Shown: one piece after another, positions 28,048 through 45,620 of the stretch
Layout of the letters: each line of letters starts with the position of its first letter
How positions within the stretch are numbered: the first letter of the stretch is position 1
DNA from: a virus
Strand: one strand, 5' to 3'
Length of the DNA: 64,000 bases
Virus record (IMG/VR): IMGVR_UViG_3300008448_000057
Span: 1-64,000 of that record
Notes under the pieces: model-generated
Seen by the model: the letters and a program-made list of their open reading frames with translations, nothing else
Database searches by the model: none
What the model was told of the DNA's origin: nothing
Program-made: the position numbers and the translations under genes

Positions 28048-29490
28048 ATGCTAGAAGGTTACATTGAAAAATCAAAAAGAAAAAAGATATTGTTGATGGG
28101 AGACGATCTTAGGATGCACTCCGGTATCGCAACAATGTCAAGAGAAATCGTGTTAGGTACCGCTCACAGATTCAATTGGGTAAATTTAGGTGCCGCAATC
28201 AACCATCCAGATTTTGGTAAAAGGCTGGATCTATCACAAGACACAAACAATGTTACAGGTTTGAGCGACAGTAGCGTTATGCTGTACCCGTCAAACGGTT
28301 ACGGAACGCCAGAAGTAGTTAGACAACTTTTGGAGATAGAAAAACCAGACGCTATAATGCTTTTCACAGACCCGAGATATTGGATCTGGTTTTTTCAAAT
28401 GGAAAGCGAGATAAGAAAGAAAATACCTGTAATTTACTACCACATATGGGACGATTATCCAGCGCCATTGTACAATTCTCCTTACTACGAATCTTGCGAT
28501 TTACTCATGGGAATATCGAAGCAAAGTAAACTTATTAGCGAATTAGTGCTTGGAGATAAAATCAAAGGAAAAATATCCACTTACGTTCCTCACGGAATAA
28601 ACGAAAAGTACTTTTACCCGATAAATGAATTCATGGTAGAAGACTATAAAAAATTGCAAGATGAAAAAAAGGCGATTTTTGGAGAAGACATTCCAGAGTT
28701 TGTTGTGTTTTACAACGCAAGAAACATCAGAAGAAAGTGTACATCTGATCTCATAGCAGCTTATTCTGTATTCTGTGATAAAATAGGAAAAGAAAAAGCA
28801 AAGAAGTGCGCTTTATTGTTACACACCCAAGCTATTGATGAAAACGGAACGAACTTAAACGCAGTAACAGAATTGCTCTGCGATCCTGAGTATCAAAAAG
28901 TAAAATTCGTACAACACTCGCTACCCACGGATGCCATCAACAGGCTTTATAACATGGCAGACGTTACGGCTCTAATTAGCTCTAACGAAGGTTGGGGACT
29001 ATCTTTAACCGAATCGATGATGGCTGGCAGAATGATCATAGGCAACGTGACTGGAGGAATGCAAGATCAAATGAGGTTCGAAGATGAAAAAGGTAAATGG
29101 GTCAATCTAACCAAAGACTTTCCTTCAAACCACTACGGCAGATACAAAAAGTGCGGTAAATGGGCAGTACCAGTTTTTCCAACTAATTTAAGCCTTGTTG
29201 GATCGATACCAACTCCTTACATATTCGATGATAGATGTGATTTTAGAGACGTTGCTAAAGCTATAGAAGACATTTACAACATGTCACCTGAAGAGAGACA
29301 AGAGCGCGGGCTGGCAGGAAGGGATTGGGTTACTTCAGAAGAGTCAATGATGAGCTCAAAAAACATGTGCAATAACGTTATATTTTCTATAGAAACAACA
29401 TTCAAGAGTTGGAAACCAAAGAGCAAATTTGAACTCATAAAGATAGAAAAATTACCAAGAAAACAAATAAAACACAAACTAGTATACTAA
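28048..29490 (+). CDS. Glycosyltransferase, GT-B fold (GT4-like)
   Basis: The 480-aa protein starts with ILLMGDDLRMHSGIATMSRE, a GT4-type Gly-rich loop. It has YVPHGINEKYF after the first Rossmann domain and the nucleotide-sugar binding region MADVTALISSNEGWGLSLTE (E-x7-E type, about residue 305-325), followed by SMMAGRMIIG. It would transfer a sugar with retention. It is the first enzyme of the glycan cluster, three bases before the second GT4-like gene. Acceptor and donor are unknown. Confidence 0.85.
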   Translation: MLEGYIEKSKRKKILLMGDDLRMHSGIATMSREIVLGTAHRFNWVNLGAAINHPDFGKRLDLSQDTNNVTGLSDSSVMLYPSNGYGTPEVVRQLLEIEKPDAIMLFTDPRYWIWFFQMESEIRKKIPVIYYHIWDDYPAPLYNSPYYESCDLLMGISKQSKLISELVLGDKIKGKISTYVPHGINEKYFYPINEFMVEDYKKLQDEKKAIFGEDIPEFVVFYNARNIRRKCTSDLIAAYSVFCDKIGKEKAKKCALLLHTQAIDENGTNLNAVTELLCDPEYQKVKFVQHSLPTDAINRLYNMADVTALISSNEGWGLSLTESMMAGRMIIGNVTGGMQDQMRFEDEKGKWVNLTKDFPSNHYGRYKKCGKWAVPVFPTNLSLVGSIPTPYIFDDRCDFRDVAKAIEDIYNMSPEERQERGLAGRDWVTSEESMMSSKNMCNNVIFSIETTFKSWKPKSKFELIKIEKLPRKQIKHKLVY

Positions 29491-29492
29491 AT

Positions 29493-30806
29493 ATGAAACC
29501 GTTATGCGTAATAAGCGCTCCAATAGACACTGCTAGTGGATACGGAGCCAGAGCCAGAGATTTTGTTAAAGCTCTATATGAATTGAAAAAAGATCAGTGG
29601 GAAATAAGATTGCTCTCACAGAGATGGGGTTCAACTGCTTGGGGATACATACAAGAACACGAATCAACGTGGGGTTTTTTAAACAATCTTATGTTGCCAA
29701 ACAACCAACTCACAAGACAACCCGATTACTGGTTTCAGATTACTGTACCTAACGAATTTCAAAGAGTTGGAAAGCTAATGAATGTCGGATTGACAGCTGG
29801 AATAGAAACAACAATATGTCATCCGTCTTGGGTAGACGGGGTTAATAGAATGGACTTAACTCTAGTGTCTTCTGAGCACGCCAAAAACGTTTTTAAAAAC
29901 TCACAATTCGAAGAGAGAGATCAACAGAACAATCTGAAGAGGAAGATATCCTTGGAAAAACCAGTAGAGGTGCTCTTCGAGGGACTTGACTTGAGTAGGT
30001 TTTTCTATATCGATGATAAAGACATACCTAAAACAGAAATAGCAGAATCTTTAAAACAAATTAACGAAGAATTTAATTACCTATTTGTTGGCCACTGGTT
30101 GCACGGAGATAACGGAGAAGACAGAAAGAACATCTCAGGATTGATAAGGTTGTTTTTAGAAACATTCAAGAACAAGAAGAAACGTCCTGGTTTGATTCTA
30201 AAAACCACAAAGGTAGCTAACAGCGTGATGGACAGAGATGAAATCTTGGAAAAAATAGAGAGCATAAGAAACTCTATCAATTCGAACGATTTACCGAACA
30301 TATATCTACTTCATGGAGATCTTAATGAAGAGGATATGAACATAGTTTACAACCACCCGAAAGTGAAAGCTATGGTGTATTTTGGACACGGCGAAGGTTT
30401 TGGTAGACCACTACTAGAGTTTTCGATATCTAAGAAACCCATTATAGCATCGGGCTGGTCGGGCCATCTAGATTTTCTTAACAACGAGTATTGCGTTCTA
30501 ATACCGGGAGAATTAAAAAACATTCATCCATCTGCGGTAGTAGAAAACATATTGATACCAGAATCCCAGTGGTTTAAAGTGGATGAAAAAGTTGCAAAAA
30601 AGTCTATGGAACAAGTCTACGAGAATTATAGCAAAGTAGTTTCTGAAAAATCCAGCAGACAATCCTATTACGTAAAGAGCAATTTTTCTTTTGAAAAAAT
30701 GACTGAGAAACTTATGAACTACGTGGATGCTTTTCCAAAACCGGTAGAAGTAAAGCTTCCTACTCTCAAGAAAATTGAATTACCTTCTTTAAAAAAAATA
30801 GGATAA
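29493..30806 (+). CDS. Glycosyltransferase, GT-B fold (GT4-like)
   Basis: The 437-aa protein opens with PIDTASGYGARARDFVKALY. It has VTVPNEFQRVG-like ITVPNEFQRVG, NYLFVGHWLHGDNGEDRKN at the linker, and the donor-site segment VYFGHGEGFGRPLLEFSISK (about residue 297-316). It is a paralogue in type, not in sequence, of the upstream transferase. The C-terminal end has a repeated LKKIELPSLKKI stretch that looks disordered. It is likely co-translated with its neighbours. Confidence 0.83.
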   Translation: MKPLCVISAPIDTASGYGARARDFVKALYELKKDQWEIRLLSQRWGSTAWGYIQEHESTWGFLNNLMLPNNQLTRQPDYWFQITVPNEFQRVGKLMNVGLTAGIETTICHPSWVDGVNRMDLTLVSSEHAKNVFKNSQFEERDQQNNLKRKISLEKPVEVLFEGLDLSRFFYIDDKDIPKTEIAESLKQINEEFNYLFVGHWLHGDNGEDRKNISGLIRLFLETFKNKKKRPGLILKTTKVANSVMDRDEILEKIESIRNSINSNDLPNIYLLHGDLNEEDMNIVYNHPKVKAMVYFGHGEGFGRPLLEFSISKKPIIASGWSGHLDFLNNEYCVLIPGELKNIHPSAVVENILIPESQWFKVDEKVAKKSMEQVYENYSKVVSEKSSRQSYYVKSNFSFEKMTEKLMNYVDAFPKPVEVKLPTLKKIELPSLKKIG

Positions 30807-30807
30807 C

Positions 30808-31035
30808 ATGAAAGACAAACACTTTGTAATATGGTTGAAGGGTTTCGTAACAGCTTGTCACAGTCATTTACCAACCCCTGCTCAGTGGGATCAATTGGTA
30901 GAAAAACTAAACACTGTTAAGAGCGAGGGCGATAAACAAACACAAGATGATTGTTTGGCTCCAACTCTGGCTTCTTACTACTACTCGACAAACACCAATC
31001 AAATAGCAAAAAGTAAAAAGATATTACATGACTAA
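30808..31035 (+). CDS. Small hypothetical protein in glycan cluster, 75 aa
   Basis: The opening HFVIWLKGFVTACHSHLPTP, then WDQLVEKLNTV, is a short helical domain of a type often seen in phage small proteins. No function is assigned. It lies one base after a transferase gene and overlaps the next by 8 bases. Confidence 0.55.
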   Translation: MKDKHFVIWLKGFVTACHSHLPTPAQWDQLVEKLNTVKSEGDKQTQDDCLAPTLASYYYSTNTNQIAKSKKILHD

Positions 31036-31480
31036 ACAAAAAACAGATTCATTGATTGATTGCCCGTTATGCAAAGAAAAATTCGCTTGTTATTCCATAA
31101 AGATGAATGAGAATAAAAACACCTACCTTTGCTTGGGGTGTGGCTACCAATCAAACGATCTCATGAAACAGGGAGATTTTGACGAAGAGCAATACGAACA
31201 AGAAATGCCTGAGTTGTATAAAGACTTAAAGAGATTGGACGAAGAAAACAGGGTTTGGTATCCGTCTGTGGTGAATATTCAAGAAAAGGGCACAGTATTT
31301 GTTAATGGCACTTGTAAAGAAGACGCTAGATGGTCGGCGATAAAGAGCGTTGAATTGACAGAAGAAGAAAAACAAAAACCCATGTTCAAGGATAAAACTC
31401 ACAAATCAGACTCATCAACTCTAAAGGACTTTGGATCAGATTATCTGAGCTGTCTAGAATATATTGGGATAGATGTGTAA
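31028..31480 (+). CDS. Zinc-ribbon-containing hypothetical protein, 150 aa
   Basis: CPLCKEKFACYSIKMNENKN, then YLCLGCGYQSNDL, forms an N-terminal zinc ribbon (two CxxC pairs). The rest is acidic and has WYPSVVNIQEKGTVFVNG. The second domain is unknown. It stands between transferase genes, but a zinc ribbon points to protein or nucleic-acid binding rather than catalysis. Confidence 0.55.
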   Translation: MTKQKTDSLIDCPLCKEKFACYSIKMNENKNTYLCLGCGYQSNDLMKQGDFDEEQYEQEMPELYKDLKRLDEENRVWYPSVVNIQEKGTVFVNGTCKEDARWSAIKSVELTEEEKQKPMFKDKTHKSDSSTLKDFGSDYLSCLEYIGIDV

Positions 31481-31489
31481 AATTATAAT

Positions 31490-32110
31490 ATGGCAACAAT
31501 ATCTTACGCGATTCCTGTTTGTAACGAACACGAAGAATTAGATAAACTACTGACTCTTTTAATTAAGTGTAAAAGAAAAGAAGACGACATAGTTATACAG
31601 TGCGATCAAGGAAATACAACAAAACAGGTGTATGAAGTTATATCAAAACACAGTGATCACGTAAAAGTTGTGGAGTTTCCTCTTAAAGGAGATTTCGCAA
31701 GTTTTAAGAACAATCTAAAAAAACATTGTGTAGCAGATTGGATATTTCAAATAGACGCAGACGAACTACTGCACGAAGTATTTCTAGAAAATTTGCCTGA
31801 AATACTGGAAAATAATCCTGAAGTACAACTGTTTTGTCTTCCAAGAATTAACACCGTTGAAGGATTGACTCAAGACCACATAAACAAATGGGGATGGAGC
31901 GTTAACGAGAAAGGTTGGGTTAATTTCCCAGATGTTCAAACTAGAATAATCCAAAATTCTCCAAAAATACAGTGGGTTGGTAAAGTACACGAAGTGATAT
32001 ATGGGCACAGTTCACAAGCAGTTTTACCAATTGAAGAGGCGTACTGTATACTACATCACAAACACATTCGTAGACAAGAAATTCAAAATACGTTGTACTC
32101 AATGATATGA
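31490..32110 (+). CDS. Glycosyltransferase, GT-A (GT2-like), short
   Basis: The 206-aa protein has the GT2 start TISYAIPVCNEHEELDKLL, a GDFASFKNNLKKHCVADWI segment and the DxD-like IDADELLHE (about residue 86). It is shorter than many GT2 enzymes and resembles the two-domain-less glycosyltransferase 2 proteins near LPS genes. It would use a nucleotide-sugar in an inverting reaction. Confidence 0.75.
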   Translation: MATISYAIPVCNEHEELDKLLTLLIKCKRKEDDIVIQCDQGNTTKQVYEVISKHSDHVKVVEFPLKGDFASFKNNLKKHCVADWIFQIDADELLHEVFLENLPEILENNPEVQLFCLPRINTVEGLTQDHINKWGWSVNEKGWVNFPDVQTRIIQNSPKIQWVGKVHEVIYGHSSQAVLPIEEAYCILHHKHIRRQEIQNTLYSMI

Positions 32111-32156
32111 AAAAAGCTTCAATAACTAGAGTATAATAAAATAAAAAAACATAGTT

Positions 32157-32411
32157 ATGGTAAATCAAGAAACATACCAAGATCAAGAGAGAGTTTATAC
32201 AGAGATAAGACAAAGATACTGTTTGCACAATTGGGTATTTCACTACAACCCGTTTACAGAATTATGGAACGCGATACACCGTGATAGATATGTTGATTAT
32301 TGGTATAATACAAATTCAAATTACGTACTAAAAAGCACCCAAATATACACACTAGTAGATTTGATTTTAAAGATTGAAAACAATAAATTAAATTTAGAAG
32401 ACATAAAATAA
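32157..32411 (+). CDS. Small hypothetical protein, 84 aa
   Basis: The protein is Tyr- and Asn-rich (WVFHYNPFTELWNAIHRDRY) with no recognised family. A short 46-base gap precedes it and 7 bases follow it, and the start has the AGTT context. Its place inside the cluster suggests expression with the sugar enzymes. Confidence 0.5.
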   Translation: MVNQETYQDQERVYTEIRQRYCLHNWVFHYNPFTELWNAIHRDRYVDYWYNTNSNYVLKSTQIYTLVDLILKIENNKLNLEDIK

Positions 32412-32418: not shown

Positions 32419-33741
32419 ATGGTTACAGAAAAACAGATACTCGAACTTGTGGAAGAGTACATAAAACAAAAACACGGCCAAAAGTCTTGGAAAGCAGGAG
32501 AAGATTGGGTGCAGTACGCAGGTCCGTATTTTGATTCCGAAGAATACGTTGCAGCAGTAAAAACCCTTCTTGGAGAATGGTTGGTTTTGGGAGCGGAAGC
32601 GATAAAATTTGAACGTAAATTCCCAAAGAAGTTTGATAAAAGTTACGGTCTATTGACTAATAGCGGTTCAAGCGCTAATCTTCTTATGATGTTAGCGATG
32701 ACTTCTAAAAGATACAAGAACTTTCCGAAAGGCACAAAAGTAATTACGCCTATCGCAGGCTTTCCGACAACAATCAATCCAATACTTCAAGTTGGATTTA
32801 CACCAGTTTTCGTTGATATAGAGTTAGAGACACTTAATTTAGACCTTGATCAGGTGGAGCAAGCTTGCATAAACAATCCTGATGCAAAGATAATAACTTT
32901 CGCTCACGTGTTAGGTAATCCTCCAAACATGAATAGGCTGATGGAGATTGTTAAGAAGTACAATCTAATACTGCTAGAAGACTGTTGCGATGCTTTAGGT
33001 TCCACTTACGAAGGCAAAGCTTTAGGTTCGTTTGGAGAAATGGCAAGTTGTTCGTTTTATCCTGCACACCATATCACAATGGGAGAGGGAGGTTTCGTAG
33101 CAATGAACGATCCACAGTTGGAGAGAATAGTGAGGAGCTTTAGAGAATGGGGAAGAGGTTGTTACTGCGTTGGAAAACAGAACTTACTTGAAAAGGGATC
33201 ATGTGGTTGTAGGTTTAACAACTGGGTACCCAGCATACCAGACGAATTATTCGACCACAAGTACGTTTACGAAGAGATTGGTTATAACCTAAAACCTATA
33301 GAACTTCAAGCTGCAATAGGGCTGGTGCAAATGAATAAATTGGAAGAGATAGGGCAGAAGAGAAAAGAAAACTATAAAAATCTGTTTAAAGCATTTGAGA
33401 AGTACAAGCAATATTTTCACTTACACGAAGCTCAACAAGGTGCAGACGTAGATTGGTTTGCTTTTCCTGTCACAGTAAAAGACGGAGCTCCATTCAAAAG
33501 ATCAGACATTTGTAAGTTCTTTGAGTCAAATAAAGTGCAAACAAGACCGTACTTCGCTGGAAACGTTATGCTGCAACCAGCTTACGAAGGAATTATGGAT
33601 CCAAAAGAGGTCATAGAAAAATACCCTGTAGCAAGAAAAGTTACGACAGACACTTTTTTCTTAGGTACTTCACCAGTAATTAACAAAGAGAAAGTAGATT
33701 ACATAGAATCTGTATTAGATAAATTTATAGAACAGTTATGA
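32419..33741 (+). CDS. RfbH/DdhC-type NDP-4-keto-6-deoxyhexose 3-dehydrase
   Basis: The 440-aa protein is a DegT/AHBA-fold enzyme of the E1 dehydrase type. Instead of the PLP lysine it has His in CSFYPAHHITMGEGG (about residue 216), as in RfbH/DdhC and ColD. Extra cysteines in RGCYCVGKQNLLEKGSCGC (about residue 248-266) match the region that holds the [2Fe-2S] cluster of DdhC. DdhC uses pyridoxamine phosphate to remove the 3-hydroxyl of CDP-4-keto-6-deoxyglucose and normally needs a separate reductase (E3). No such reductase is seen here. It commits a sugar to the 3,6-dideoxy series. Confidence 0.85.
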   Translation: MVTEKQILELVEEYIKQKHGQKSWKAGEDWVQYAGPYFDSEEYVAAVKTLLGEWLVLGAEAIKFERKFPKKFDKSYGLLTNSGSSANLLMMLAMTSKRYKNFPKGTKVITPIAGFPTTINPILQVGFTPVFVDIELETLNLDLDQVEQACINNPDAKIITFAHVLGNPPNMNRLMEIVKKYNLILLEDCCDALGSTYEGKALGSFGEMASCSFYPAHHITMGEGGFVAMNDPQLERIVRSFREWGRGCYCVGKQNLLEKGSCGCRFNNWVPSIPDELFDHKYVYEEIGYNLKPIELQAAIGLVQMNKLEEIGQKRKENYKNLFKAFEKYKQYFHLHEAQQGADVDWFAFPVTVKDGAPFKRSDICKFFESNKVQTRPYFAGNVMLQPAYEGIMDPKEVIEKYPVARKVTTDTFFLGTSPVINKEKVDYIESVLDKFIEQL

Positions 33742-34721
33742 AAATTTGTTTTTTGACGGAGATGGGTTTAGAAGGCAAAGTTCCAAGCAATCACACAAAC
33801 ATGAGGACAGAATTCGCTTGGATGTTTGCACTTGATGCTGATCACAGACACATAAGAAATTATCATAATGTTGTAGGATACGATCATGTTTTTATTATAT
33901 TCCCAAAAGGCGAAGTGTATCTTAACGCTGTAGGTGGAAAGTTAGTAGATAAGAAAAATCCGGTTAGCGATTTACTACATTCAGACTTCATAGAAGTATT
34001 AAAAAGCAACAACAAAAAGGTTCACTACGTTCAAGAAGGCCCGCACTGGTTATATAACGACTATGAATTAGCGGATCAAATACAGTTTTATAACATGCTC
34101 TCTGGATGCGATTCTATATTCTCACACAACGAATCAGATGTACAGTACTATAGAGGCTTGCTTCCAACGAAACGAGTGCATGTGATGCCGACTTTAATGA
34201 TAGAAAGCGTAATATCAAAAATACAGCAGAAGACAGAGGATAAGACGATAATCGGGGGAAACTTTGCTAGATGGTACGGAGGATTTGAAAGTTATATAGT
34301 AGCTCAAGAGTTTGAAGTGCCTATTTGGGGACAAACGTCCCATGCAACCAGAGACGGAGAGAGCCAATTAGTAAATTTACTCCCAAGAGTGATGTGGACT
34401 GACTGGATGATGCAGCTAAGTTCTTTCAAATATGCAGTACATTTGATGCCCACAGCTGCAGCAGGTACGTTTGGGTTAAACTGTGCGTACTTTGGCATAC
34501 CGTGCATAGGAAACGAAGACGTAGATACACAGAGGTTGTGCCACCCCGATCTAGCAGTAAACGTCAAAGATATGAAAAAAGCCAGATCTTTGGCAAATAA
34601 GTTGAAGCAAGACGAGGGATTCTATGAACACTGTTCTAATTTAGCTATAACTAACTGCGAAAGATACTATAGTTTAAAACATTTTAACAACACACTTAAA
34701 AATATATTACATGAACAATAA
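33738..34721 (+). CDS. Probable glycosyltransferase, GT-B-like, 327 aa
   Basis: The protein has alternating strands and helices of a Rossmann type, with a C-terminal MWTDWMMQLSSFKYAVHLMP, then AAAGTFGLNCAYFGIPCIG, the sort of segment that binds the donor in GT-B enzymes. No specific family is named. It overlaps the dehydrase by 4 bases and the next transferase by 11 bases, consistent with a glycan role. Confidence 0.6.
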   Translation: MKICFLTEMGLEGKVPSNHTNMRTEFAWMFALDADHRHIRNYHNVVGYDHVFIIFPKGEVYLNAVGGKLVDKKNPVSDLLHSDFIEVLKSNNKKVHYVQEGPHWLYNDYELADQIQFYNMLSGCDSIFSHNESDVQYYRGLLPTKRVHVMPTLMIESVISKIQQKTEDKTIIGGNFARWYGGFESYIVAQEFEVPIWGQTSHATRDGESQLVNLLPRVMWTDWMMQLSSFKYAVHLMPTAAAGTFGLNCAYFGIPCIGNEDVDTQRLCHPDLAVNVKDMKKARSLANKLKQDEGFYEHCSNLAITNCERYYSLKHFNNTLKNILHEQ

Positions 34722-35442
34722 ACATGTGTTAGTAATTACCGGTTGCGATGAAGCCATGCATTCAGTGCTAGATCTTACTATACCTTCAAAATTAAGATAC
34801 ACTCAAAAACATGGATACGACTTTAATGTGCTGAGATCTTTTAGATCATTTCCGCACATAGGTGTAGATGCTAAAAACCCTATCGGTTTAGGATTTGCTC
34901 GTACCATACATGTATTTCAAATGTTAGAGCACTACGATGTTGTTATGTGGATAGATGGAGACTCTGTTATCACGAACGATAATTTTACAATAGATGATTT
35001 TATAAATGATCAACATACGATATATTTTTCTTACGATTGGCCTGTTGCTATGGACGGTAGTACTGGCCACGTTGGATTTAGTGGTGGTAATTTTATAATA
35101 AAATCCACAGAACACGTTGAAGAATTATATAGTACATTTATAGAATATAGTAAACATTTCTTAAACGATCACGGAGCAGACCAAACGTGTTTAAACGTAA
35201 TACACAATAACACACCACTTAGAAAGCACTACGGATTGTTAGAACACAAATACTTAAACGCAGTGCCTGAGTTTATAACAAGAACTAGCGTGTGGCAAGC
35301 AGATCCAAATAGAACTGGTCCAAATAGGCGTTTTAGTATACCTTCTCCGTGGAATAAAGATTGTTTTCTTGCCCACTTAACCGGATGTAATACGGCTGAC
35401 AGAATAGATTTACTACAAAACGAGTTCAAAGATTATTTGTAA
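34711..35442 (+). CDS. Glycosyltransferase, GT-A (GMA12/MNN10-like), 243 aa
   Basis: VLVITGCDEAMHSVLDLTIP starts the fold; VVMWIDGDSVITND (about residue 73-86) is the DxD motif for metal and donor. NFIIKSTEHVEELY and HGADQTCLNVI fit acceptor and donor loops of the GMA12/MNN10 type (GT34). It probably transfers a hexose, retaining. Its ATG overlaps the upstream gene. Confidence 0.7.
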   Translation: MNNKHVLVITGCDEAMHSVLDLTIPSKLRYTQKHGYDFNVLRSFRSFPHIGVDAKNPIGLGFARTIHVFQMLEHYDVVMWIDGDSVITNDNFTIDDFINDQHTIYFSYDWPVAMDGSTGHVGFSGGNFIIKSTEHVEELYSTFIEYSKHFLNDHGADQTCLNVIHNNTPLRKHYGLLEHKYLNAVPEFITRTSVWQADPNRTGPNRRFSIPSPWNKDCFLAHLTGCNTADRIDLLQNEFKDYL

Positions 35443-37093: not shown

Positions 37094-38058
37094 AAAAAAT
37101 AGTATACGTTACAGGTTGTCTAGGTTTTATAGGATCTTACGTAACAAGGAAATGTTTAGAACTCGGTTGGTATGTTAAAGGAGTTGATAAGATAACTTAC
37201 GCGGCTAATAAAGATTTGCTTACTGAGTTTAAGAAAAATAAGAACTTTTCGTTTGTACACTGCGATATAAACGAATTGACTTTTCTTTACGATTGCGATT
37301 ATGTGATAAACACGGCTGCCGAAACACACGTAGGTAATTCTATAATGAGTAGTTTAGAATTTGTAAAATCAAATATAGATGGCGTACACAATTTACTTGA
37401 GTTAATAAAAAACTATAGAAGCGAAAATGGCAAAAAACCAGCGTTGATACATTTTAGCACAGACGAAGTTTATGGAGATATAGAAAGCGGAGATCATTAC
37501 GAAACAGACACGCTAAAACCTAGTAACCCATACTCAGCTACAAAAGCGGCCGCAGACATGCTCGTTATGGCTTGGGGAAGAACTCACAATATCCCATACA
37601 TGATTGTTAGACCTACAAATAATTACGGAATGGGTCAATATGTTGAGAAACTCATACCAAAAGCAATAAAGTTTTTGAATATAGGTAGGAAAATACCTTT
37701 ACACAATAACGGAGAACCCTATAGAAACTGGTTACACGCAGAAGATACTGCTACTGCAGTAATTACATTAATCGAAAAAGGAAAAATAGGAGAGATATAC
37801 AACGTAGCTGGTGGATTTGAACAACAGAATATAGATACTATAAAAAAGATAATTACAGAGTACGTAGAAATAGCAAACTGGCAAGACTTTTACGACATAG
37901 AACATTACGTAGATTTCTCTTGCGACAGACCTGGTCAAGACGTACGCTACGCATTGAACGATGATAAACTAAGATCTTTAGGTTGGTCACCAAAAAAACA
38001 GTTTGATGCAGAATTAAAACATATTGTAAATTATTATAAGAACAAATTTGTATGGTAA
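37090..38058 (+). CDS. Nucleotide-sugar 4,6-dehydratase (RmlB-like SDR)
   Basis: The 322-aa protein is an extended SDR. It has VTGCLGFIGSYVTRKC (NAD loop), NTAAETHVGNSI, HFSTDEVYGDI with the catalytic Thr-Asp-Glu, and YSATKAAADML with Tyr-x3-Lys. The end has FSCDRPGQDVRYALNDDKL, as in dTDP-glucose 4,6-dehydratases. It makes the 4-keto-6-deoxy sugar that RfbH-type enzymes use. The nucleotide (dTDP or CDP) is not told by sequence. It is shorter than RmlB (about 355 aa). No nucleotidylyltransferase for the first step is seen in the cluster, so host activity may supply the NDP-glucose. Confidence 0.87.
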   Translation: MKKIVYVTGCLGFIGSYVTRKCLELGWYVKGVDKITYAANKDLLTEFKKNKNFSFVHCDINELTFLYDCDYVINTAAETHVGNSIMSSLEFVKSNIDGVHNLLELIKNYRSENGKKPALIHFSTDEVYGDIESGDHYETDTLKPSNPYSATKAAADMLVMAWGRTHNIPYMIVRPTNNYGMGQYVEKLIPKAIKFLNIGRKIPLHNNGEPYRNWLHAEDTATAVITLIEKGKIGEIYNVAGGFEQQNIDTIKKIITEYVEIANWQDFYDIEHYVDFSCDRPGQDVRYALNDDKLRSLGWSPKKQFDAELKHIVNYYKNKFVW

Positions 38059-39818
38059 AAGTTAGTGATTTAGTGGCAGAGTTTCTGGTAGAAAAGAAAA
38101 TACAGGTTGCTTTTGGAATAATAGGATCTGCAAATTCACACATATTTGATTCAATATCGGATAAAGGTTACACAAAAGTAGTGTACGTTCACCATGAGCA
38201 AGCAGCAGTGATGGCAGCGGGGTCTTACTATAGGGCCACTGGAAAAATATCTGCGGCTATAGTTACTGCTGGAGCCGGATCAGCAAACGCGATAACCGGA
38301 GTCATTAGTAATTGGGCTGATTCTATACCGTGTTTAGTAATATCAGGACAAGAATCCACAAAATATATAAAAGAGCATGCCAACTTAAGGATGATTGGAA
38401 CTCAAGGTTTTGATGTAGTTGAGATGGTTAAACGCGTTACAAAGTATGCTAAGACTGTTATAGATAAGAATGAAATAGTCAAGTGTCTTAACGAAGCATG
38501 TAGTTTTGCGCTTAGTGATAGACACGGTCCTTCATGGATAGATGTTCCTTTTGATATACAAAGTGCATTTGTAAATAAAGAAGAACTTGAAGTGTTTGAA
38601 GAACCCAAATCAGATCTTACAGCTGTAAGCGTTAAAGAATTACTAGATTTGTTAAAAACCTCAAAAAGACCAGTAATATTAGGAGGATACGGCATAAAGG
38701 CGTCAAATAGTCAAAAAGAATTCGATAGTCTAGTAAGATCATACAAAATACCCGTCTTACTATCTTGGTCAGCTATAGACGTACTATCCCACGATCACCC
38801 GTATAACTTCGGAACTTCTGGACTTTACGGACAGAGGCGAGCTAACTTCATATTACAGAATTGTGATCTATTGATAGTGCTTGGTAGTAGATTGGCTTTA
38901 CCTCAAACGGGATACAACATAGATAACTTTGCACCAAACGCAAAAATTATTATGGTTAACAACGACCGAAATGAATTAGATAAGTACGCAAATAGATACG
39001 ACATAAAGATACCATTCGACGTTAAGCAAATAATCTCATGTCTTTTAGCGATTAAGTATGATAATAACATCTCAGAATGGTATGACAGGTGCGTAAAGTA
39101 TAATTTAGATTTTCCAATAATAGAGGAGACCCACAAAATAGATAACGAGAGTTTTGATAATTCGTACGTGTTGATTAACAAACTCTCTGATTTGATGTGT
39201 AAAAACGACATCCTTGTCATCGGTCAGGGAACTCCTTTACCGTGTGCACACCAAGCTTTCAAAATAAAAGAAGATCAGATAGCTTTTGCATCCAACGGTT
39301 TGGGAGAAATGGGACACGGATTACCATCAGCAGTAGGTGCAGCTTTAAGCGGAAAAAAAGCCGTGTTACTAGATGGAGATGGAAGCATGATGATGAATTT
39401 ACAAGAGCTACAAACAGTGGTAGGGTATAATCTTCCTATAAAAATAATAGTGTTTAACAATGAGGGATACTTATTCATCAAGCACACTCAAAAAATGCTT
39501 TTTAATGGGAGATACACAGGCGTTGATTTAAACACTGGGGTCACTTTACCGAAGTTCGAGAAGATAGCAAATGCGTTTGGTATACCGTACTTTGACTCTA
39601 AATCATCTTCTTTAGAGGATTTCATAAACCACGATGGATATGCCATATACGAGTGCCACATGAATCCAGAGCAAGATTTGATACCAAAAGTAAAAGGCGT
39701 TCCCGTAGCAGACGCTATATTGGCACCTCCGTTAGAAGAGATGTCACCCCTATTAACAATACAAGAGATAGAGAATAATATGATAAACATTAATGCACTT
39801 TCTTATAAATTAAGATGA
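38052..39818 (+). CDS. ThDP-dependent acetolactate-synthase-family enzyme (YerE-like candidate)
   Basis: The 588-aa protein has the three-domain acetolactate synthase layout. The ThDP Glu is in VYVHHEQAAVMAAGSYYRAT (about residue 48); a central domain contains RPVILGGYGIKAS; and the C-terminal ThDP motif begins LDGDGSMMMN (about residue 440) and ends VFNNEGY. YerE is such an enzyme: it adds a two-carbon unit from pyruvate to CDP-3,6-dideoxy-4-keto-glucose, giving yersiniose. Here the gene follows the 4,6-dehydratase and lies in the same cluster as an RfbH-type dehydrase. A branched-sugar role is thus an informed inference. Valine or isoleucine synthesis is less likely in this place. Confidence 0.78.
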   Translation: MVKVSDLVAEFLVEKKIQVAFGIIGSANSHIFDSISDKGYTKVVYVHHEQAAVMAAGSYYRATGKISAAIVTAGAGSANAITGVISNWADSIPCLVISGQESTKYIKEHANLRMIGTQGFDVVEMVKRVTKYAKTVIDKNEIVKCLNEACSFALSDRHGPSWIDVPFDIQSAFVNKEELEVFEEPKSDLTAVSVKELLDLLKTSKRPVILGGYGIKASNSQKEFDSLVRSYKIPVLLSWSAIDVLSHDHPYNFGTSGLYGQRRANFILQNCDLLIVLGSRLALPQTGYNIDNFAPNAKIIMVNNDRNELDKYANRYDIKIPFDVKQIISCLLAIKYDNNISEWYDRCVKYNLDFPIIEETHKIDNESFDNSYVLINKLSDLMCKNDILVIGQGTPLPCAHQAFKIKEDQIAFASNGLGEMGHGLPSAVGAALSGKKAVLLDGDGSMMMNLQELQTVVGYNLPIKIIVFNNEGYLFIKHTQKMLFNGRYTGVDLNTGVTLPKFEKIANAFGIPYFDSKSSSLEDFINHDGYAIYECHMNPEQDLIPKVKGVPVADAILAPPLEEMSPLLTIQEIENNMININALSYKLR

Positions 39819-40519
39819 TAGACTTAACACTACAAACAATACCATCGCCATTAGTATCTGAATTGCTTACACACTCTAATTTAGACGGAGTTCTTTTGGA
39901 TACTGAGCATGGACACTTTAACAACGAGACTCTTTACTCGTGTATACAGGTAATTACTTTAAGCCATAAAAAGTGTTTTGTACGATTTACAGATCTAAAT
40001 AAACAATTGGTGAGAATGTGTTTGGATGCTGGCGTTGATGGAGTCGTATTTTCTACTGTTAATGACTACGTGTACGCGAAAGAAATAATAGAATACTGCA
40101 AATACCCTAATCAAGGAGGAAACAGAGGAATAGGACTTGTGAGAGAAAATGGATGGGGCAAACACAAGTTGGGTAACAATAAACCAACAATAATAATTCA
40201 AGTAGAAACAGCAAAAGCGATTGGTAATATACATGAACTATTAAAGTTATCTTCAGAAGTAGATTATTATTTAGTTGGACCATACGATATATCTTCAAGT
40301 CTCCTAAAACCAGGAGAATTTGAAGATGAAAACTTTGTGAATAAAATGGACTTGATTTATAAATGTATTCCGATAAGCAAATTAGGTTTATTTTTACCAA
40401 CCAAACAAGACATAGAAAGATTTAGAAAGCAAAAAAAAGATAGACCGAATTTATTAATTTGGGGAATGGACACGGACTTTATTTTACAATCCTTAAAAGA
40501 TATACAAAATGGTAATTGA
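39815..40519 (+). CDS. HpcH/HpaI-family aldolase-like protein, 234 aa
   Basis: The TIM-barrel pattern LDGVLLDTEHGHFNNETL (metal-binding His and Glu region), AGVDGVVFSTV, NRGIGLVRENGWG, QVETAKAIGNI (metal Glu) and VDYYLVGPYDISSSL is that of 2-keto-3-deoxy-acid aldolases (HpcH/HpaI, GarL). These enzymes cleave or form bonds between pyruvate and aldehydes. It overlaps both neighbours by 4 and 11 bases. Together with the ThDP enzyme upstream it suggests carbon-carbon bond chemistry using pyruvate in this cluster. Confidence 0.8.
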   Translation: MIDLTLQTIPSPLVSELLTHSNLDGVLLDTEHGHFNNETLYSCIQVITLSHKKCFVRFTDLNKQLVRMCLDAGVDGVVFSTVNDYVYAKEIIEYCKYPNQGGNRGIGLVRENGWGKHKLGNNKPTIIIQVETAKAIGNIHELLKLSSEVDYYLVGPYDISSSLLKPGEFEDENFVNKMDLIYKCIPISKLGLFLPTKQDIERFRKQKKDRPNLLIWGMDTDFILQSLKDIQNGN

Positions 40520-41264
40520 TTTAAAACAAAGCTTAGATAACTTAGGCAAAAATTGGGACGTCATAGGCATGAAACAATCTTTCGAAGACGAAGGTGTTTT
40601 ACTGAATGACGTTGTTGCATTTAAAAGAGTAACAGAAATATGCGGACTACAATCTTTTGTAAAGATAGGTGGATGCGAAGCTAAGAGCGATCTTTATAAT
40701 TGCATAAGGATGGGCATAAACGGAATAATAGCGCCTATGGTAGAAACGCCTTTTGCTTTAGACAAGTTTATAACAATGATGAAAGATTATCCAAACAGAG
40801 CCGATTCTTATATTGTTATAGAAAGCAAAACTGCCTATGAAAACATAGATAGTATACTAGAAAATGGCCGCGGTAACCTGAAAGGGATAATTGTTGGCAG
40901 ATCAGACTTTTCTAAGTCATATAATCTAAATAAGTCAGAGGTAGACAGCGGTTTCATATACGACAAGGTAGAAGACATATTGACAAAGGCAAAAAAGTAT
41001 AATTATATGACTACCATGGGAGGTAACGTATCAACAAGAAGTACTAAATTTATAAAAGATGCTTTCTCAAAAGGTTTGTTAGATAGAATAGAAACAAGAA
41101 ACGTTGTTATAGGTTTAAATAAATCTAACATAGTCAACATAGATAATAACATACAAAAAGCTCTTGACTTTGAAATAGAGTGGTTACAATATAAATTATC
41201 AATATCATCGAAGCTTAGCGCCGATTATTCAGAAAGAATAGGTTTATTAAAAAATAGAAAGTAA
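40509..41264 (+). CDS. Second HpcH/HpaI/citrate-lyase-like TIM-barrel protein, 251 aa
   Basis: The protein has DVIGMKQSFEDEGVLLNDVV, FVKIGGCEAKSDLYNC, NGIIAPMVETPFALDKFI and GIIVGRSDFSKSYNL, the last similar to the VGPYDIS-like strand of HpcH aldolases. Glu in MVETPFAL is placed like a metal ligand. It is a distant relative of the gene before it, possibly forming a pair with it. The reaction is unknown. The same gene order (ThDP enzyme, aldolase, aldolase-like, iron-sulfur TIM barrel) is worth comparing across polysaccharide clusters. Confidence 0.65.
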   Translation: MVIDLKQSLDNLGKNWDVIGMKQSFEDEGVLLNDVVAFKRVTEICGLQSFVKIGGCEAKSDLYNCIRMGINGIIAPMVETPFALDKFITMMKDYPNRADSYIVIESKTAYENIDSILENGRGNLKGIIVGRSDFSKSYNLNKSEVDSGFIYDKVEDILTKAKKYNYMTTMGGNVSTRSTKFIKDAFSKGLLDRIETRNVVIGLNKSNIVNIDNNIQKALDFEIEWLQYKLSISSKLSADYSERIGLLKNRK

Positions 41265-41265
41265 A

Positions 41266-42426
41266 ATGCAAGAAAGATACAGCACGCTTCAAAGATTATT
41301 AAACGAAGAGAAATGTTTTAAACTTATTTGCGGAGCGGGAAATGAAGATAAGCATCACGTTAAAAAACTAGCGTTTGTGTATACATTAGCAGGCGCTAAA
41401 GTCTTGGACGTTTCAGCTAATGTTGAGGTTGTTAAATACGCAGGACAGGGCATAGACATGGCCTTCCAATACGCAAATAAGCTAGGCATAACTCTAACAA
41501 CAAGACCTTTTATTATGGTTAGTATAGGAATGCCTGGCGATCATCATGTTAGAAAGTCTTATATAGATCCTAACACTTGTGTATCTTGCGGCCTGTGCGC
41601 TCCCGTGTGTCCCACAAACGCAATACCATTTGGCTTTGAAAAGAATCTCGAACACTACATAAATCTTGGAGGTAGTTATGAAGTAGAAGATCAAAGTAAA
41701 GAGATAGTGATAAAAGATTTGTGTATTGGTTGTGGAAAGTGTAGTAATATATGTCCAAAGGATTATATAATATCGTATAGACATAACGAAAGACAGCTGA
41801 GAGAGTTACTCCCTAAATGTATGGAAGCGGGAGCAGAAACGTTTGAATTACATGCTGCTGTTGGAGAAGACGAGATTACACTTAAGGAGTGGCAATTAAT
41901 AAGTGAAATAAATCCGAACAACTTTAATTCTATGTGTTTGGATCGATTGAACTTGGGGAATTTGAATTTAGAACACAGAATAGAAGAGGCAAAAAGAATA
42001 TCAAACAACAAGATTATCATTCAAGCTGATGGATATCCCATGAGTGGAGGAGCAGATGATTATAACACAACGCTTCAAGCTATATCTACTGCAGACGTTA
42101 TAAATAAAAAGTTTAATATTAGATTAGACAAAAAATCAGTTAAAAAGGATGGAGACAAAGTTATAACAAATAAAGTTTATAGAGCTCACGGTCACCATCA
42201 AGGAGTTTATATAGTCTTATCAGGAGGTACAAATTCTCATAGCAAAAAATTATCAGAACTCGTTGGTGTTAGATGTAATGGAATAGCTATAGGTACATTT
42301 GCAAGAAATATTATCGAACAGTACATAGACGATGTAAACTTTTACGAAGACGATAATCTAATAAAATCAGCTTACAAAATAGCAAAAAAATTAGTAACAG
42401 AAAATATAGGAGAGATATATGAATAA
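41266..42426 (+). CDS. LdpA-like iron-sulfur TIM-barrel protein (2x[4Fe-4S])
   Basis: The 386-aa protein contains two ferredoxin-type motifs, CVSCGLCAPVCPTN (about residue 105) and CIGCGKCSNICPKDY (about residue 153). These are framed by KLICGAGNEDKHHVKKLAFV and a TIM-barrel-like continuation (IIQADGYPMSGGADDYNTTL, then GVYIVLSGGTNSHSKKLS). This layout is what I recall of LdpA and related DUF561 proteins of cyanobacteria. It probably carries electrons or senses redox state. In this cluster it may donate electrons to the iron-sulfur RfbH-type dehydrase, which lacks its usual E3 partner; that is a hypothesis. It overlaps the next gene by 8 bases. Confidence 0.7.
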   Translation: MQERYSTLQRLLNEEKCFKLICGAGNEDKHHVKKLAFVYTLAGAKVLDVSANVEVVKYAGQGIDMAFQYANKLGITLTTRPFIMVSIGMPGDHHVRKSYIDPNTCVSCGLCAPVCPTNAIPFGFEKNLEHYINLGGSYEVEDQSKEIVIKDLCIGCGKCSNICPKDYIISYRHNERQLRELLPKCMEAGAETFELHAAVGEDEITLKEWQLISEINPNNFNSMCLDRLNLGNLNLEHRIEEAKRISNNKIIIQADGYPMSGGADDYNTTLQAISTADVINKKFNIRLDKKSVKKDGDKVITNKVYRAHGHHQGVYIVLSGGTNSHSKKLSELVGVRCNGIAIGTFARNIIEQYIDDVNFYEDDNLIKSAYKIAKKLVTENIGEIYE

Positions 42427-42796
42427 GATTTATAAAATAGCGGTAGACTTTGACGGAACGTTGTGTGAATACGCTTTTCCAAAAATAGGAGAACAGAAGG
42501 ATCATCACATAAAGCTAATGAAAATTCTTATAGAATTAAGAAAAAAAGGGCATAAATTAATACTGTGGACGAATAGAGGCGATAATGAACAGTATCCTGT
42601 CTTGAGTGAAGCTATCGAGTGGTGTAAAAATCGTGGATTAGAATTTGATGCAATTAATCAAAATCTGCAAGATCAAGTAAAATTATCGGGGCCTAGTCCC
42701 AAAATTATGGCGGACTATTATATAGATGACAAAGCTTTACAATTCAGCGATGAGGAAACCAAAATAAAAACAATAGAAGTTTTATCTACTCTATGA
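42419..42796 (+). CDS. Small HAD-family hydrolase, 125 aa
   Basis: VDFDGTLCEYAFPKIGEQ holds HAD motif I (Asp-x-Asp-Gly-Thr) and LILWTNRGD motif II. YYIDDKALQF is motif IV. At 125 aa it lacks a cap domain. Such small HAD proteins are common in capsular and LPS clusters and may be sugar-phosphate phosphatases. It overlaps both neighbours. Confidence 0.78.
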   Translation: MNKIYKIAVDFDGTLCEYAFPKIGEQKDHHIKLMKILIELRKKGHKLILWTNRGDNEQYPVLSEAIEWCKNRGLEFDAINQNLQDQVKLSGPSPKIMADYYIDDKALQFSDEETKIKTIEVLSTL

Positions 42797-43713
42797 ATAT
42801 CATTATAACTGGGGGGAACGGTTTTTTGGGATCTAGCATTGTCAGAAAATTTTTAAACAGTAATCATAACGTACTTGTGTTTTCTAAAAACTCAAATAAC
42901 ATATCAGATATATTACACAAGATAAAGTATATACAATCAGACAATGATGATCTTATTTTACACAAAGATGCCATAAGCACTTTTCAACCACACGTAGTAG
43001 TTCATTGCGGTTGGTTCGGGGGAAATAGCCACGCTGACATTAACGATATGAATCAGTTCCATCGTAATGTACCATCAAGCATAAAACTAATAGAAATTAT
43101 AAACGAATTAGAAAACAAGCCAATGTTTGTGGGTTTTGGAAGCTTTGCTGAAAATGGAAAAATGCGATATCAAATAAGCGAACAAGATTCAGAAAATCCA
43201 ACCAATTTATATGGACTTTCAAAGTTAACTTTTAAGAATTATAGTAAAATGCTCTGTGATTCATATGGAATAGATTGGACTTGGATAAAACCCTGTTACA
43301 TATACGGACCGAATGATGTTAAGACCAGACTAATACCGAGACTGATTAGTAAGTTTATAAAACACGAAGACGTAGTATTAGATGAATGTAAGTCTATCGT
43401 TGATTACTTGTACATAGACGATTTCTCAGAGTATGTTTACCAACTAATAACAACAAGATGTTTGGGAGTGTACCACTTATGTTCAGGCAATCAATATAAG
43501 CTCAGAGATATAGTCGTATTGATAAAAAAACTAACTAACAGTAAGAGTGCTGTAATTTTTGACAAAACTAAAAATAGAGATTCTGCATTTGATTACGTGT
43601 GCGGAAATAACCATAAACTAAAAAGCGTGTTAAATGTAGAAAATAATGTAAATTTAATAGAAGGAATAAAAAAAACTATAAATTATGAAAGATCTTGTAG
43701 TAATAAAGGATAA
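42793..43713 (+). CDS. NAD-dependent epimerase/reductase (SDR), 306 aa
   Basis: The NAD loop is IITGGNGFLGSSIVRKFL. A short-chain catalytic region with FGSFAENGKMRYQISE and a tyrosine in YGLSKLTFKNYSKML (Tyr-x3-Lys) follows, then YIYGPND and a substrate domain with DYLYIDDFSEYVY. It is most like NAD-dependent epimerases or 4-ketoreductases of nucleotide-sugar pathways and would act late, after dehydration. It overlaps the HAD gene by 4 bases and the methyltransferase by 29. Confidence 0.82.
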   Translation: MNIIITGGNGFLGSSIVRKFLNSNHNVLVFSKNSNNISDILHKIKYIQSDNDDLILHKDAISTFQPHVVVHCGWFGGNSHADINDMNQFHRNVPSSIKLIEIINELENKPMFVGFGSFAENGKMRYQISEQDSENPTNLYGLSKLTFKNYSKMLCDSYGIDWTWIKPCYIYGPNDVKTRLIPRLISKFIKHEDVVLDECKSIVDYLYIDDFSEYVYQLITTRCLGVYHLCSGNQYKLRDIVVLIKKLTNSKSAVIFDKTKNRDSAFDYVCGNNHKLKSVLNVENNVNLIEGIKKTINYERSCSNKG

Positions 43714-44332
43714 TAAATGGGTATGGCCAAAGAACGATGTAACTAGTTGGCCCGGTCAAAACGATAGCGTAAATTTAGTAGATTATGTTTTGCCTTATGT
43801 TAAAAACAAAGGTGTCATGGTACAAGCGGGTGGTAACTGTGGATTCATATTAAGCCAATTCGTACCTCACTTTAAAGCAGTATACACATTCGAACCAGAT
43901 CCTGTTAACTTCTATTGTTTGAGTCAAAACGTAACTTCTCCAAATGTCATAAAAATGCAAGCTTGCGTAGGAAACAATAAAAAAACCGTACAGACACAGC
44001 AGCTGATTAGAGAAGACAAGCCAGTCGATATAGGAGGCGTGCATATTTCTGGAGAGGGTTATACCCCAACCATTAGAGTAGACGATTTGAATTTGCCAGC
44101 TTGTGATCTTATACAGTATGATGTTGAGGGATACGAATTAGAGGCTTTGTTGGGTACCTTAGAAACTATTAAAAAGTATAAACCAACTATATGTTTAGAA
44201 TTTTGTGAAAAGTGGTTAAATAGGTATGACACTAATACAGAAAGCGTATTAAGTCTTATGAAAGACTTGGGATATGTTGAGGTTTCTAGTATAAGAGTTG
44301 ATAAGATATTTTTACATAAAGATAATTTATAA
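43685..44332 (+). CDS. FkbM-family methyltransferase, 215 aa
   Basis: The SAM region is GVMVQAGGNCGFILSQFVPH, then VYTFEPDPVNFYCLSQNV, typical of FkbM methyltransferases. RVDDLNLPACDLIQYDVEGY and TICLEFCEKWL complete the fold. FkbM enzymes methylate hydroxyl groups of sugars or polyketides. In this setting an O-methyl sugar is likely. The start overlaps the epimerase gene. Confidence 0.8.
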   Translation: MKDLVVIKDNKWVWPKNDVTSWPGQNDSVNLVDYVLPYVKNKGVMVQAGGNCGFILSQFVPHFKAVYTFEPDPVNFYCLSQNVTSPNVIKMQACVGNNKKTVQTQQLIREDKPVDIGGVHISGEGYTPTIRVDDLNLPACDLIQYDVEGYELEALLGTLETIKKYKPTICLEFCEKWLNRYDTNTESVLSLMKDLGYVEVSSIRVDKIFLHKDNL

Positions 44333-44333
44333 G

Positions 44334-45620
44334 ATGAATTCAAAAATAACTTTCGCTACAAACACCGGGCCCGGCACTTTAGAATACACTAAACTATTAT
44401 TGAGATCCCTTAAAGAAAACTTAGATAACAAAGAGCACGAGATACTTGTGTTTATAGACTCTGACAACGATGGCACTTTGGATTATTTAAAATCCATTAA
44501 AAAAGACTTTCATGATTTAAAGATCGTTACTCACAAAGTTAAACCAGTAGTAGGACCAGAAAGAAATTGCAATCTTATCGCAGAACTAGCTAAGCATGAT
44601 ATAGTCAGTTATCTCCAAAGCGATATGGTAGTATCAAAACACTACGACACAAACGTGCTAAGTAGTTTAGAAGAAAATACTATAATGAGTTCTACAAGAG
44701 TAGAACCCCCTCTTCACGAACAATCAGACAAAACTTTTACTGCTAATTTTGGTTTGAATCCAGAAGAGTTCAACATGCGTGCCTTTTTAGAATACTCAGA
44801 AAAAGTAAAGTCGAACAAAAGCTTAGACTATTTTTTTGCCCCCTATACGTTTCATAAAGACACGTGGAATAAAATGGGTGGATATGACACCGTATTCAGA
44901 AGATCGAGGTGCGATTCAGATTTAGTGCAAAGGTGCATGCAATTGGGAATAAAATTAAAACAAACATTTTCTGCTAATGTATATCATTTCACGTGCGTAT
45001 CTTCTAGAGGCAAAAACTGGTTCGATTCGGAAAACAAAGAAGCTCAGAACAGGGTTTTAATGCAAAACAAAGCAGACATGGTTGAATTAAGAAGATTTGT
45101 TAGGAAGTGGGGATCTTTTAATCACGGAGAGTCTATATTATTTAAGTACGATATAGACTTATTTATTCACTCTGAAGACGATTCACTACTTAGTTTAGCT
45201 GTAAATTTAGAACCCTATTTTAGTAAGGTGTATTTAATGAATCCTAACCTTTTGGAAAAAGCAAAAAATACGCAGCAAATAGATTTAGAGCATGAGTACG
45301 CAAACAATCTTTACGGATTCTCAAATGAAGATTGGCAAGCATCTAAGAAGTTCTACAACAAAACTGACTACAACCAAATATACAAATTAACTGACAGCCA
45401 CAACAAATACAATGCGTGTTTATACTTACATTCAACAGAAAATTTAGATTATATCTATCAAAACATACAGCATTTACACAAACTAATAGATGAAGTAGAG
45501 GAATTAGGAGATTATGAGTTCGGATCCGCTGTATTATCGATTAAAAACAAAGTGCTTGTTCAAAACGATTTGTGTGTGAAAAATCCAGAATTTGATATGA
45601 GCTTATTAACTATCGAATAA
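44334..45620 (+). CDS. Glycosyltransferase, GT2 family, 428 aa
   Basis: The ATG at 44334 is preferred because it directly follows the previous stop; earlier in-frame starts lie inside it. The GT2 fold is shown by ITFATNTGPGTLEYTKLLLR, VFIDSDNDGTLDYLKS and IVSYLQSDMVVS (DxD-like), then a W-rich TFHKDTWNKMGGYDTVFRRS. A C-terminal 160-residue extension (from about residue 265) is of unknown fold. This ends the glycan cluster. Confidence 0.8.
   Translation: MNSKITFATNTGPGTLEYTKLLLRSLKENLDNKEHEILVFIDSDNDGTLDYLKSIKKDFHDLKIVTHKVKPVVGPERNCNLIAELAKHDIVSYLQSDMVVSKHYDTNVLSSLEENTIMSSTRVEPPLHEQSDKTFTANFGLNPEEFNMRAFLEYSEKVKSNKSLDYFFAPYTFHKDTWNKMGGYDTVFRRSRCDSDLVQRCMQLGIKLKQTFSANVYHFTCVSSRGKNWFDSENKEAQNRVLMQNKADMVELRRFVRKWGSFNHGESILFKYDIDLFIHSEDDSLLSLAVNLEPYFSKVYLMNPNLLEKAKNTQQIDLEHEYANNLYGFSNEDWQASKKFYNKTDYNQIYKLTDSHNKYNACLYLHSTENLDYIYQNIQHLHKLIDEVEELGDYEFGSAVLSIKNKVLVQNDLCVKNPEFDMSLLTIE

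Follow-up and report, generated by a model that had tools for sequence, protein, structure and literature searches.

The sugar operon

We analysed bases 1 to 64000 of the 70,535-base (70.5 kb) IMG/VR virus record IMGVR_UViG_3300008448_000057 (the window), a tailed-phage genome whose closest cultured relative is Flavobacterium phage vB_FspM_immuto_2-6A (Immutovirus immuto, NC_055915, Baltic Sea; hereafter immuto). The genes between positions 28048 and 45620 form a single dense operon, entirely on the + strand (Table 1), and 15 of the 18 junctions from 28048 to 45956 are overlaps or gaps of at most 10 bp. The operon encodes a 4,6-dehydratase, an RfbH/DdhC-type 3-dehydratase, a YerE-like thiamine diphosphate (ThDP) enzyme, two aldolase-like proteins (HpaI1 and HpaI2), an LdpA-like iron-sulfur protein, a haloacid dehalogenase-type (HAD) phosphatase, a short-chain dehydrogenase/reductase (SDR), an FkbM methyltransferase and several glycosyltransferases (GTs). 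From these families we consider it fairly probable that the operon builds and attaches a C4-branched 3,6-dideoxyhexose.

An initial annotation, made from the sequence alone, had overlooked the HAD phosphatase (42419) and the zinc-ribbon protein (31028); the genes that it did name are all present, on the + strand and nearly gapless. Its two aldolase-like proteins are HpcH/HpaI proteins by Pfam, its iron-sulfur TIM-barrel protein is the LdpA-like protein with two [4Fe-4S] motifs, and its FkbM methyltransferase matches Methyltransf_21 and TIGR01444. As for its about seven GTs, five have Pfam matches (28048, 31490, 34711, 35444 with GT2 plus GT10 domains, and 44298), one (29493) is recognized by its identity to an immuto protein (51%), and 33738 is a seventh candidate with no Pfam match. 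For the closing GT2 gene the ATG at 44334 is the likelier start. The SDR, annotated as an epimerase, does match Pfam Epimerase but may equally be a ketoreductase; it is akin to an SDR family that adjoins ThDP genes in bacteria (86.9 bits). Transmembrane segments were not found in the sugar or GT proteins (on the Kyte-Doolittle scale no stretch of 19 residues exceeds 1.6), and we saw no membrane protein resembling a flippase or polymerase within the 64-kb window.

Table 1. Genes of the phage sugar operon, with the evidence for each assignment
Gene product	Position	Strand	Evidence
GT4-type glycosyltransferase, first frame gene	28048..29490	+	Pfam Glycos_transf_1; 62% to syntenic immuto glycosyltransferase
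Second frame glycosyltransferase	29493..30806	+	no Pfam match; 51% to immuto 'glycosyltransferase, RfaG'
Zinc-ribbon protein of frame	31028..31480	+	weak Zn_ribbon_DnaG; 40% to immuto gp179
GT2 glycosyltransferase, last conserved frame gene	31490..32110	+	Pfam Glycos_transf_2; 46% to immuto gp178
84-amino-acid protein, also present in phage locus L004	32157..32411	+	no family; synteny
RfbH/DdhC-type NDP-4-keto-6-deoxyhexose 3-dehydratase (pyridoxamine phosphate, [2Fe-2S])	32419..33741	+	NF011936, 3bcx match, residues
Putative glycosyltransferase	33738..34721	+	no Pfam match; homologues in phage glycan loci L004, L018, L048
GT34-like glycosyltransferase	34711..35442	+	Pfam Glyco_transf_34
Two-domain glycosyltransferase, GT2 + GT10-like	35444..37093	+	Pfam Glycos_transf_2, Glyco_transf_10
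RmlB-like (dTDP-glucose) 4,6-dehydratase	37090..38058	+	TIGR01181 versus TIGR02622 bits; motifs
YerE-like ThDP carboligase (C4 branching, predicted)	38052..39818	+	three ThDP-enzyme Pfam domains; 8rph match, trees, residues
HpaI1, class II HpcH/HpaI aldolase	39815..40519	+	Pfam HpcH_HpaI; canonical catalytic residues
HpaI2, divergent HpcH/HpaI-fold protein	40509..41264	+	Pfam; AlphaFold and Foldseek
LdpA-like TIM barrel, two [4Fe-4S] ferredoxin motifs	41266..42426	+	Pfam Fer4 and LdpA domains; model
HAD phosphatase, BT0820-like	42419..42796	+	NF046079 90.6 bits (below cut-off 165); DxD, T, K, DD motifs conserved
Extended SDR, candidate branch ketoreductase or epimerase	42793..43713	+	Pfam Epimerase
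FkbM methyltransferase	43685..44332	+	Pfam Methyltransf_21, TIGR01444
GT2 glycosyltransferase closing locus	44298..45620	+	Pfam; 28% to immuto gp169, closing gene of immuto locus

The dideoxy branch

The RfbH protein scores 474.6 bits against the hidden Markov model (HMM) NF011936, over the curated cut-off of 423, and its nearest structures are those of E1/DdhC (3bcx with 344.6 bits, and 3bb8). In the alignment to E1 a His takes the place of the pyridoxal phosphate lysine, and C190, C248, C250 and C262 align with the four E1 cluster cysteines C193, C251, C253 and C261, as had been annotated; by profile and residues the protein is a genuine 3-dehydratase.

The 4,6-dehydratase carries the motifs GxxGxxG, STDEVYG and YSATK (YxxxK). 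Its top family is the deoxythymidine diphosphate (dTDP)-glucose model TIGR01181, with 303.7 bits (yet under the cut-off of 365), whereas the cytidine diphosphate (CDP)-glucose model TIGR02622 gives 81.4 bits and its cut-off of 278 is failed. A CDP-type (RfbG) identity was rejected on these scores, which amends the comparison with the CDP-linked Yersinia route in the initial annotation, and the protein appears to be an RmlB-like, dTDP-type dehydratase. Because of this type, the sugar is more likely to be dTDP-linked than CDP-linked. We found no match to an RfbF-type nucleotidyltransferase in the window or in the final 6.5 kb of the record, which use of the host dTDP-glucose pool would account for; bacterial relatives carry RfbF and RfbG instead.

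A YerE-like ThDP enzyme

When the ThDP enzyme was compared with the PDB by phmmer, the best match was 8rph (488 bits) and the next best an acetohydroxyacid synthase (AHAS; 270 bits). This structure is that of JanthE, a YerE-like carboligase able to use ketones as acceptors (PMC12188165). In both of our trees (44 and 59 sequences) the phage enzyme shares a clade of 100% SH-aLRT support with JanthE and with homologues from bacteria (L056, L057 and L101), and the AHAS sequences lie apart. Kinship with YerE had been annotated, with grouping among true acetolactate synthases named beforehand as the refuting outcome; the enzyme groups with JanthE. The acceptor-binding Arg of the AHAS FDDR motif, found in seven out of seven aligned AHAS, is Pro in the phage enzyme and in JanthE, and the Trp of most AHAS is Thr in both. 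The ThDP site itself is retained (HHEQ with the catalytic Glu, GDG and NN motifs aligned). AHAS profiles reach at best 325.2 bits (cut-off 738), and every AHAS equivalog cut-off is failed. Profile cut-offs, PDB scores, trees and acceptor-site residues thus led us to reject an AHAS identity for the phage enzyme (L052 was also rejected as an AHAS), and support a YerE-like ketone carboligase, predicted to link a ketone sugar with a 2-keto acid.

The predicted YerE-like route recurs in about 15 phage contigs. The phage collection that we searched yielded no YerE-like enzyme (top matches were AHAS with at most 32% identity), and no ThDP homologues were found on plasmids at an E-value of 1e-80. In phage contig L040 (7456-9217) the YerE-like ThDP gene is in two pieces, which may reflect a frameshift, an assembly error or a decayed copy.

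The aldolases and the carbon donor

The YerE-like enzymes ErwE, MMAR_2332 and JanthE use 4-hydroxy-2-oxo acids: the first two favour 2-keto acids that carry a hydroxyl group, and JanthE can use 4-hydroxy-2-oxovalerate (PMC12247030, PMC12188165). HpaI and DmpG aldolases make products of this class. Among bacterial members of the phage enzyme's clade, the two with readable sugar operons (L075 and L117) encode RfbF, RfbG, RfbH, an acylating acetaldehyde dehydrogenase and a DmpG-type 4-hydroxy-2-oxovalerate aldolase beside the ThDP enzyme. HpaI1 keeps the catalytic Asp, His and Arg and the metal-binding Glu and Asp (alignment to 2vws; 12 homologues), and is found with six out of six class-1 phage ThDP enzymes and with no class-2 phage ThDP enzyme. 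Since its class II residues are kept and the product class is the same, HpaI1 plausibly stands in for DmpG.

HpaI2 has the HpcH/HpaI fold (AlphaFold pLDDT 93; Foldseek matches to HpaI aldolases), and its homologues adjoin ThDP genes in Bacteroidota, Pseudomonadota and gut genomes. In the class holding Gastranaerophilales, a homologue lies within 6 kb of the ThDP gene in 25 of the 44 ThDP-bearing genomes (Fisher p 3e-11 for co-occurrence, uncorrected for kinship). The ThDP enzyme probably draws on a longer hydroxy-2-keto acid made by the aldolases, and not on the two carbons of pyruvate, as its donor; of the two-carbon addition that the initial annotation cited from Yersinia, the YerE-like enzyme would stay and the donor would change.

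The HpaI2-LdpA-HAD core

The LdpA-like protein is a distant LdpA relative (144 bits to NF045992, failing the cut-off of 450), and its cluster cysteines are invariant in 42 homologues. In the AlphaFold model (pLDDT 89) a domain with the two clusters is inserted into a TIM barrel. For this model Foldseek returned only generic TIM barrels (TM about 0.4), so the function of the protein is left unassigned from structure.

The genes for HpaI2, the LdpA-like protein and the HAD phosphatase are contiguous in most phage loci, in Pelagibacteraceae and in a Chloroflexi (SAT206) contig. They are accompanied either by ThDP, RfbH and dehydratase genes (15 loci) or by a NeuA/KdsB-like cytidylyltransferase (13 loci; the four tested all match Pfam CTP_transf_3). 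The ThDP enzyme and the cytidine monophosphate (CMP)-sugar transferase never occur together among the 28 LdpA loci, and on the LdpA tree we count about five switches of partner type (bootstrap range 4-6). ThDP carboligases and CMP transferases both act on 2-keto acids, and for this reason we propose that the core makes a 2-keto acid.

The best evidence that the LdpA-like protein and the HAD phosphatase belong to a branched-sugar route comes from three bacterial operons. In a gut genome of the class holding Gastranaerophilales, RfbF, RfbG, RfbH, LdpA, HAD, a DRE-TIM aldolase, HpaI1 and ThDP genes form one run (L164; G952:C4:36000-55500), and L162 and L163 have LdpA, HAD, aldolase, HpaI1 and ThDP genes. 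The L164 operon is complete and would be the equivalent, in bacteria, of the phage pathway.

LdpA-like homologues were absent from 395 sampled Bacteroidota genomes, save on a viral-looking contig binned in a metagenome-assembled genome (MAG; G006), and none were found in cultured phages or plasmids. A Pelagibacteraceae single-cell genome (L015, 3550-11480) has HpaI2, LdpA, HAD and NeuA genes just downstream of its 16S and 23S rRNA genes, and this module probably lies in a surface-gene island. A reading frame adjoining the LdpA-like gene in another locus (L019:9094-9984) had been read as a ferredoxin reductase; this was dropped, as it has no Pfam match.

A conserved glycosyltransferase frame in immuto-like phages

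The window carries the phage markers DnaB, UvsX, exonuclease, single-stranded DNA-binding protein, DNA polymerase, ribonucleotide reductase and GroEL. Identity to immuto is 53% for DNA polymerase, 50% for DnaB and 53% for GroEL, with gene order preserved blockwise. As the core is syntenic with that of immuto at 34-59% identity, the phage is an immuto relative, probably in a genus separate from Immutovirus, judged from core replication genes and gene order. Since its nearest cultured kin infects Flavobacterium, the host is likely to be a flavobacterium or another member of the Bacteroidota.

The sugar genes are set in a frame common to immuto: GT4, GT4, zinc protein and GT2 genes (62, 51, 40 and 46% identity) and a closing GT2 gene (28%). 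The middle module of immuto has WecE-type aminotransferases, a pilin-glycosylation (acyltransferase-like) gene and an epimerase, and probably makes an amino-dideoxy sugar. Phage contigs L018, L043 and L045-L048 have the same frame with HpaI2-LdpA-HAD and the cytidylyltransferase. L018, a contig of the Flavobacteriales MAG NAT55, resembles phage sequence that ended up in a GTDB genome through binning, with synteny near-identical to that of the viral contigs L045 and L048. From these comparisons, the conserved GT frame is one that carries swappable sugar modules. Because three sugar recipes occupy one place in one frame, its product may be a surface glycan under diversifying selection; because the enzymes are soluble and export genes are lacking, it is probably destined for a virion protein or the host lipopolysaccharide (LPS) core.

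Endonucleases flank the operon: a GIY-YIG-like reading frame (recognized by eye; 26070-26858) before a PDDEXK nuclease on one side, and an HNH endonuclease (46712-47455) on the other. Such mobile endonucleases might help to swap modules. Elsewhere in the window are genes for GroES-like and GroEL proteins (18580-20500), common to immuto, and for a protein that matches the PHROG 'threonine dehydratase' (20552-21433).

Proposed pathway and alternatives

Protein families, catalytic residues, ThDP kinship and gene associations were read from the sequence; from them we infer the nucleotide, the donor acid, the order of steps 3-6, the LdpA-like step, the exact sugar and its destination. In step 1 the RmlB-like enzyme would convert host dTDP-glucose to dTDP-4-keto-6-deoxyglucose, and in step 2 RfbH would strip the 3-OH, the host or the LdpA-like protein providing the reducing power. 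The two aldolases (HpaI1 and HpaI2) would act together with the LdpA-like iron-sulfur barrel and HAD phosphatase to supply a hydroxylated 2-keto acid (step 3), which the YerE-like enzyme would decarboxylate, adding the remaining chain at C4 to give a tertiary alcohol (step 4). The SDR would then reduce the new ketone (step 5), and finally FkbM would methylate and the soluble GTs would assemble a short cytoplasmic glycan (step 6). More tentatively, and possible at best, the pathway may be modular: the core would make a 2-keto-3-deoxy (ulosonic-type) acid with two alternative fates, activation with CMP, or decarboxylation and grafting onto a dTDP-3,6-dideoxy-4-ketohexose, which would yield a branched sugar of higher carbon number; the LdpA-like barrel would then carry out a novel redox or dehydration reaction on the acid.

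Several observations weigh against a branched-sugar pathway of this kind. The HpaI2-LdpA-HAD core is also found without RfbH or ThDP, in the CMP-transferase loci, and therefore could feed another sugar. In one gut class the LdpA-like protein is present in 172 of 240 genomes and the ThDP enzyme in 44, mostly LdpA-like without ThDP, so the role of the former is wider than branched sugars. HpaI2 lacks the catalytic His and has Lys in place of Arg (the metal-binding Glu and Asp are kept), and the association of HpaI1 with class-1 ThDP enzymes comes from one clade and therefore counts as one event. The dehydratase is of dTDP type, while the characterised YerE routes are CDP-linked. Finally, the phage record is partial, and no dedicated E3-type reductase for RfbH was seen among the annotated operon genes, a part of the reading frames having been scanned.

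The core without ThDP would also fit a plain yersiniose-type route, in which the ThDP enzyme adds the two-carbon unit of pyruvate and the aldolases, LdpA-like protein and HAD phosphatase make a second, unrelated glycan residue. YerE and JanthE do accept pyruvate (PMC12247030). We hold this route unlikely: the CMP transferase and the ThDP enzyme stay mutually exclusive despite the repeated changes of neighbour type, the bacterial operons group LdpA, HAD, aldolases and ThDP, and class-1 ThDP relatives carry a DmpG aldolase. The promiscuous acceptor range of JanthE (PMC12188165) would allow an unbranched 3,6-dideoxy sugar, with the ThDP enzyme turning a free ketone or aldehyde into a side metabolite, but RfbH, the 4,6-dehydratase and the YerE-like enzyme co-recur in phages and bacteria, and this reading is improbable.

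A phage acetolactate synthase that raises branched-chain amino acids is what a generic annotation and AHAS profile matches of up to 325 bits would suggest; it is largely refuted and highly improbable, given the failed cut-offs, the trees and the residues, the position of the gene inside a sugar operon and the lack of any visible regulatory subunit. Soluble GTs would also permit glycosylation of the phage DNA in place of virion protein or LPS, and immuto has genes for modifying DNA bases (DpdA and the queuosine genes). These 7-deazaguanine genes, however, are located elsewhere in immuto with no tie to the GT frame, and a frame with varied sugar modules would be typical of surface glycans; we regard a DNA glycan as quite improbable. 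The branched dideoxy sugar that the initial annotation had suggested is thus favoured by the YerE-like clade together with the RfbH HMM score and residues.

Comparison with known systems

The operon resembles the routes to yersiniose A (YerE, Yersinia pseudotuberculosis) and erwiniose (ErwE, Pectobacterium) in its 4,6-dehydratase, RfbH-type 3-dehydratase, YerE-like carboligase and SDR, and ErwE of the erwiniose route uses hydroxylated 2-keto acids. Those routes are bacterial and CDP-linked, whereas the phage operon has a dTDP-type dehydratase, no nucleotidyltransferase that we could find, and HpaI-type aldolases with the LdpA-like protein and HAD phosphatase. JanthE (Janthinobacterium sp. HH01) is the nearest characterised ThDP enzyme, sharing the supported clade and the acceptor-site Pro; it has CDG where the phage enzyme has the canonical GDG, and the sugar acceptor of the latter is predicted. 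The LdpA-like protein shares two [4Fe-4S] motifs and LdpA domains with LdpA, the cyanobacterial circadian iron-sulfur protein, but differs from it in its low score, its sugar-operon context and the absence of any sign of a clock link. An uncharacterised iron-sulfur family, common in one gut class, would now be tied to the donor side of branched sugars.

YerE-like enzymes are known from bacterial LPS; their viral orthologues are called unexplored in a 2025 review (PMC12247030). We found no described phage pathway for such a branched dideoxy sugar in the open-access literature. To our knowledge, no viral branched-sugar route has been known; if correct, the present one would be the first. That no such phage pathway is described had been stated before, and it holds for the YerE-like enzyme with aldolases and LdpA-like protein, which has no counterpart in the phage collection searched, but not for RfbH: the Synechococcus phage S-H68 cluster (MK016663) has a dTDP-glucose 4,6-dehydratase, an RfbH homologue (43%) and many GTs. 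S-H68 belongs to another phage family (Kyanoviridae), and gave no YerE-like ThDP or LdpA-like match in our searches. RfbH glycan clusters in phages being known already, what appears new here is the combination of a YerE-like enzyme with aldolases and the LdpA-like protein. The immuto locus shares the syntenic GT frame and the closing GT2 and differs in its aminotransferase-type middle module; exchange of modules within a fixed GT frame is a possible basis of phage surface variation, testable in cultured relatives.

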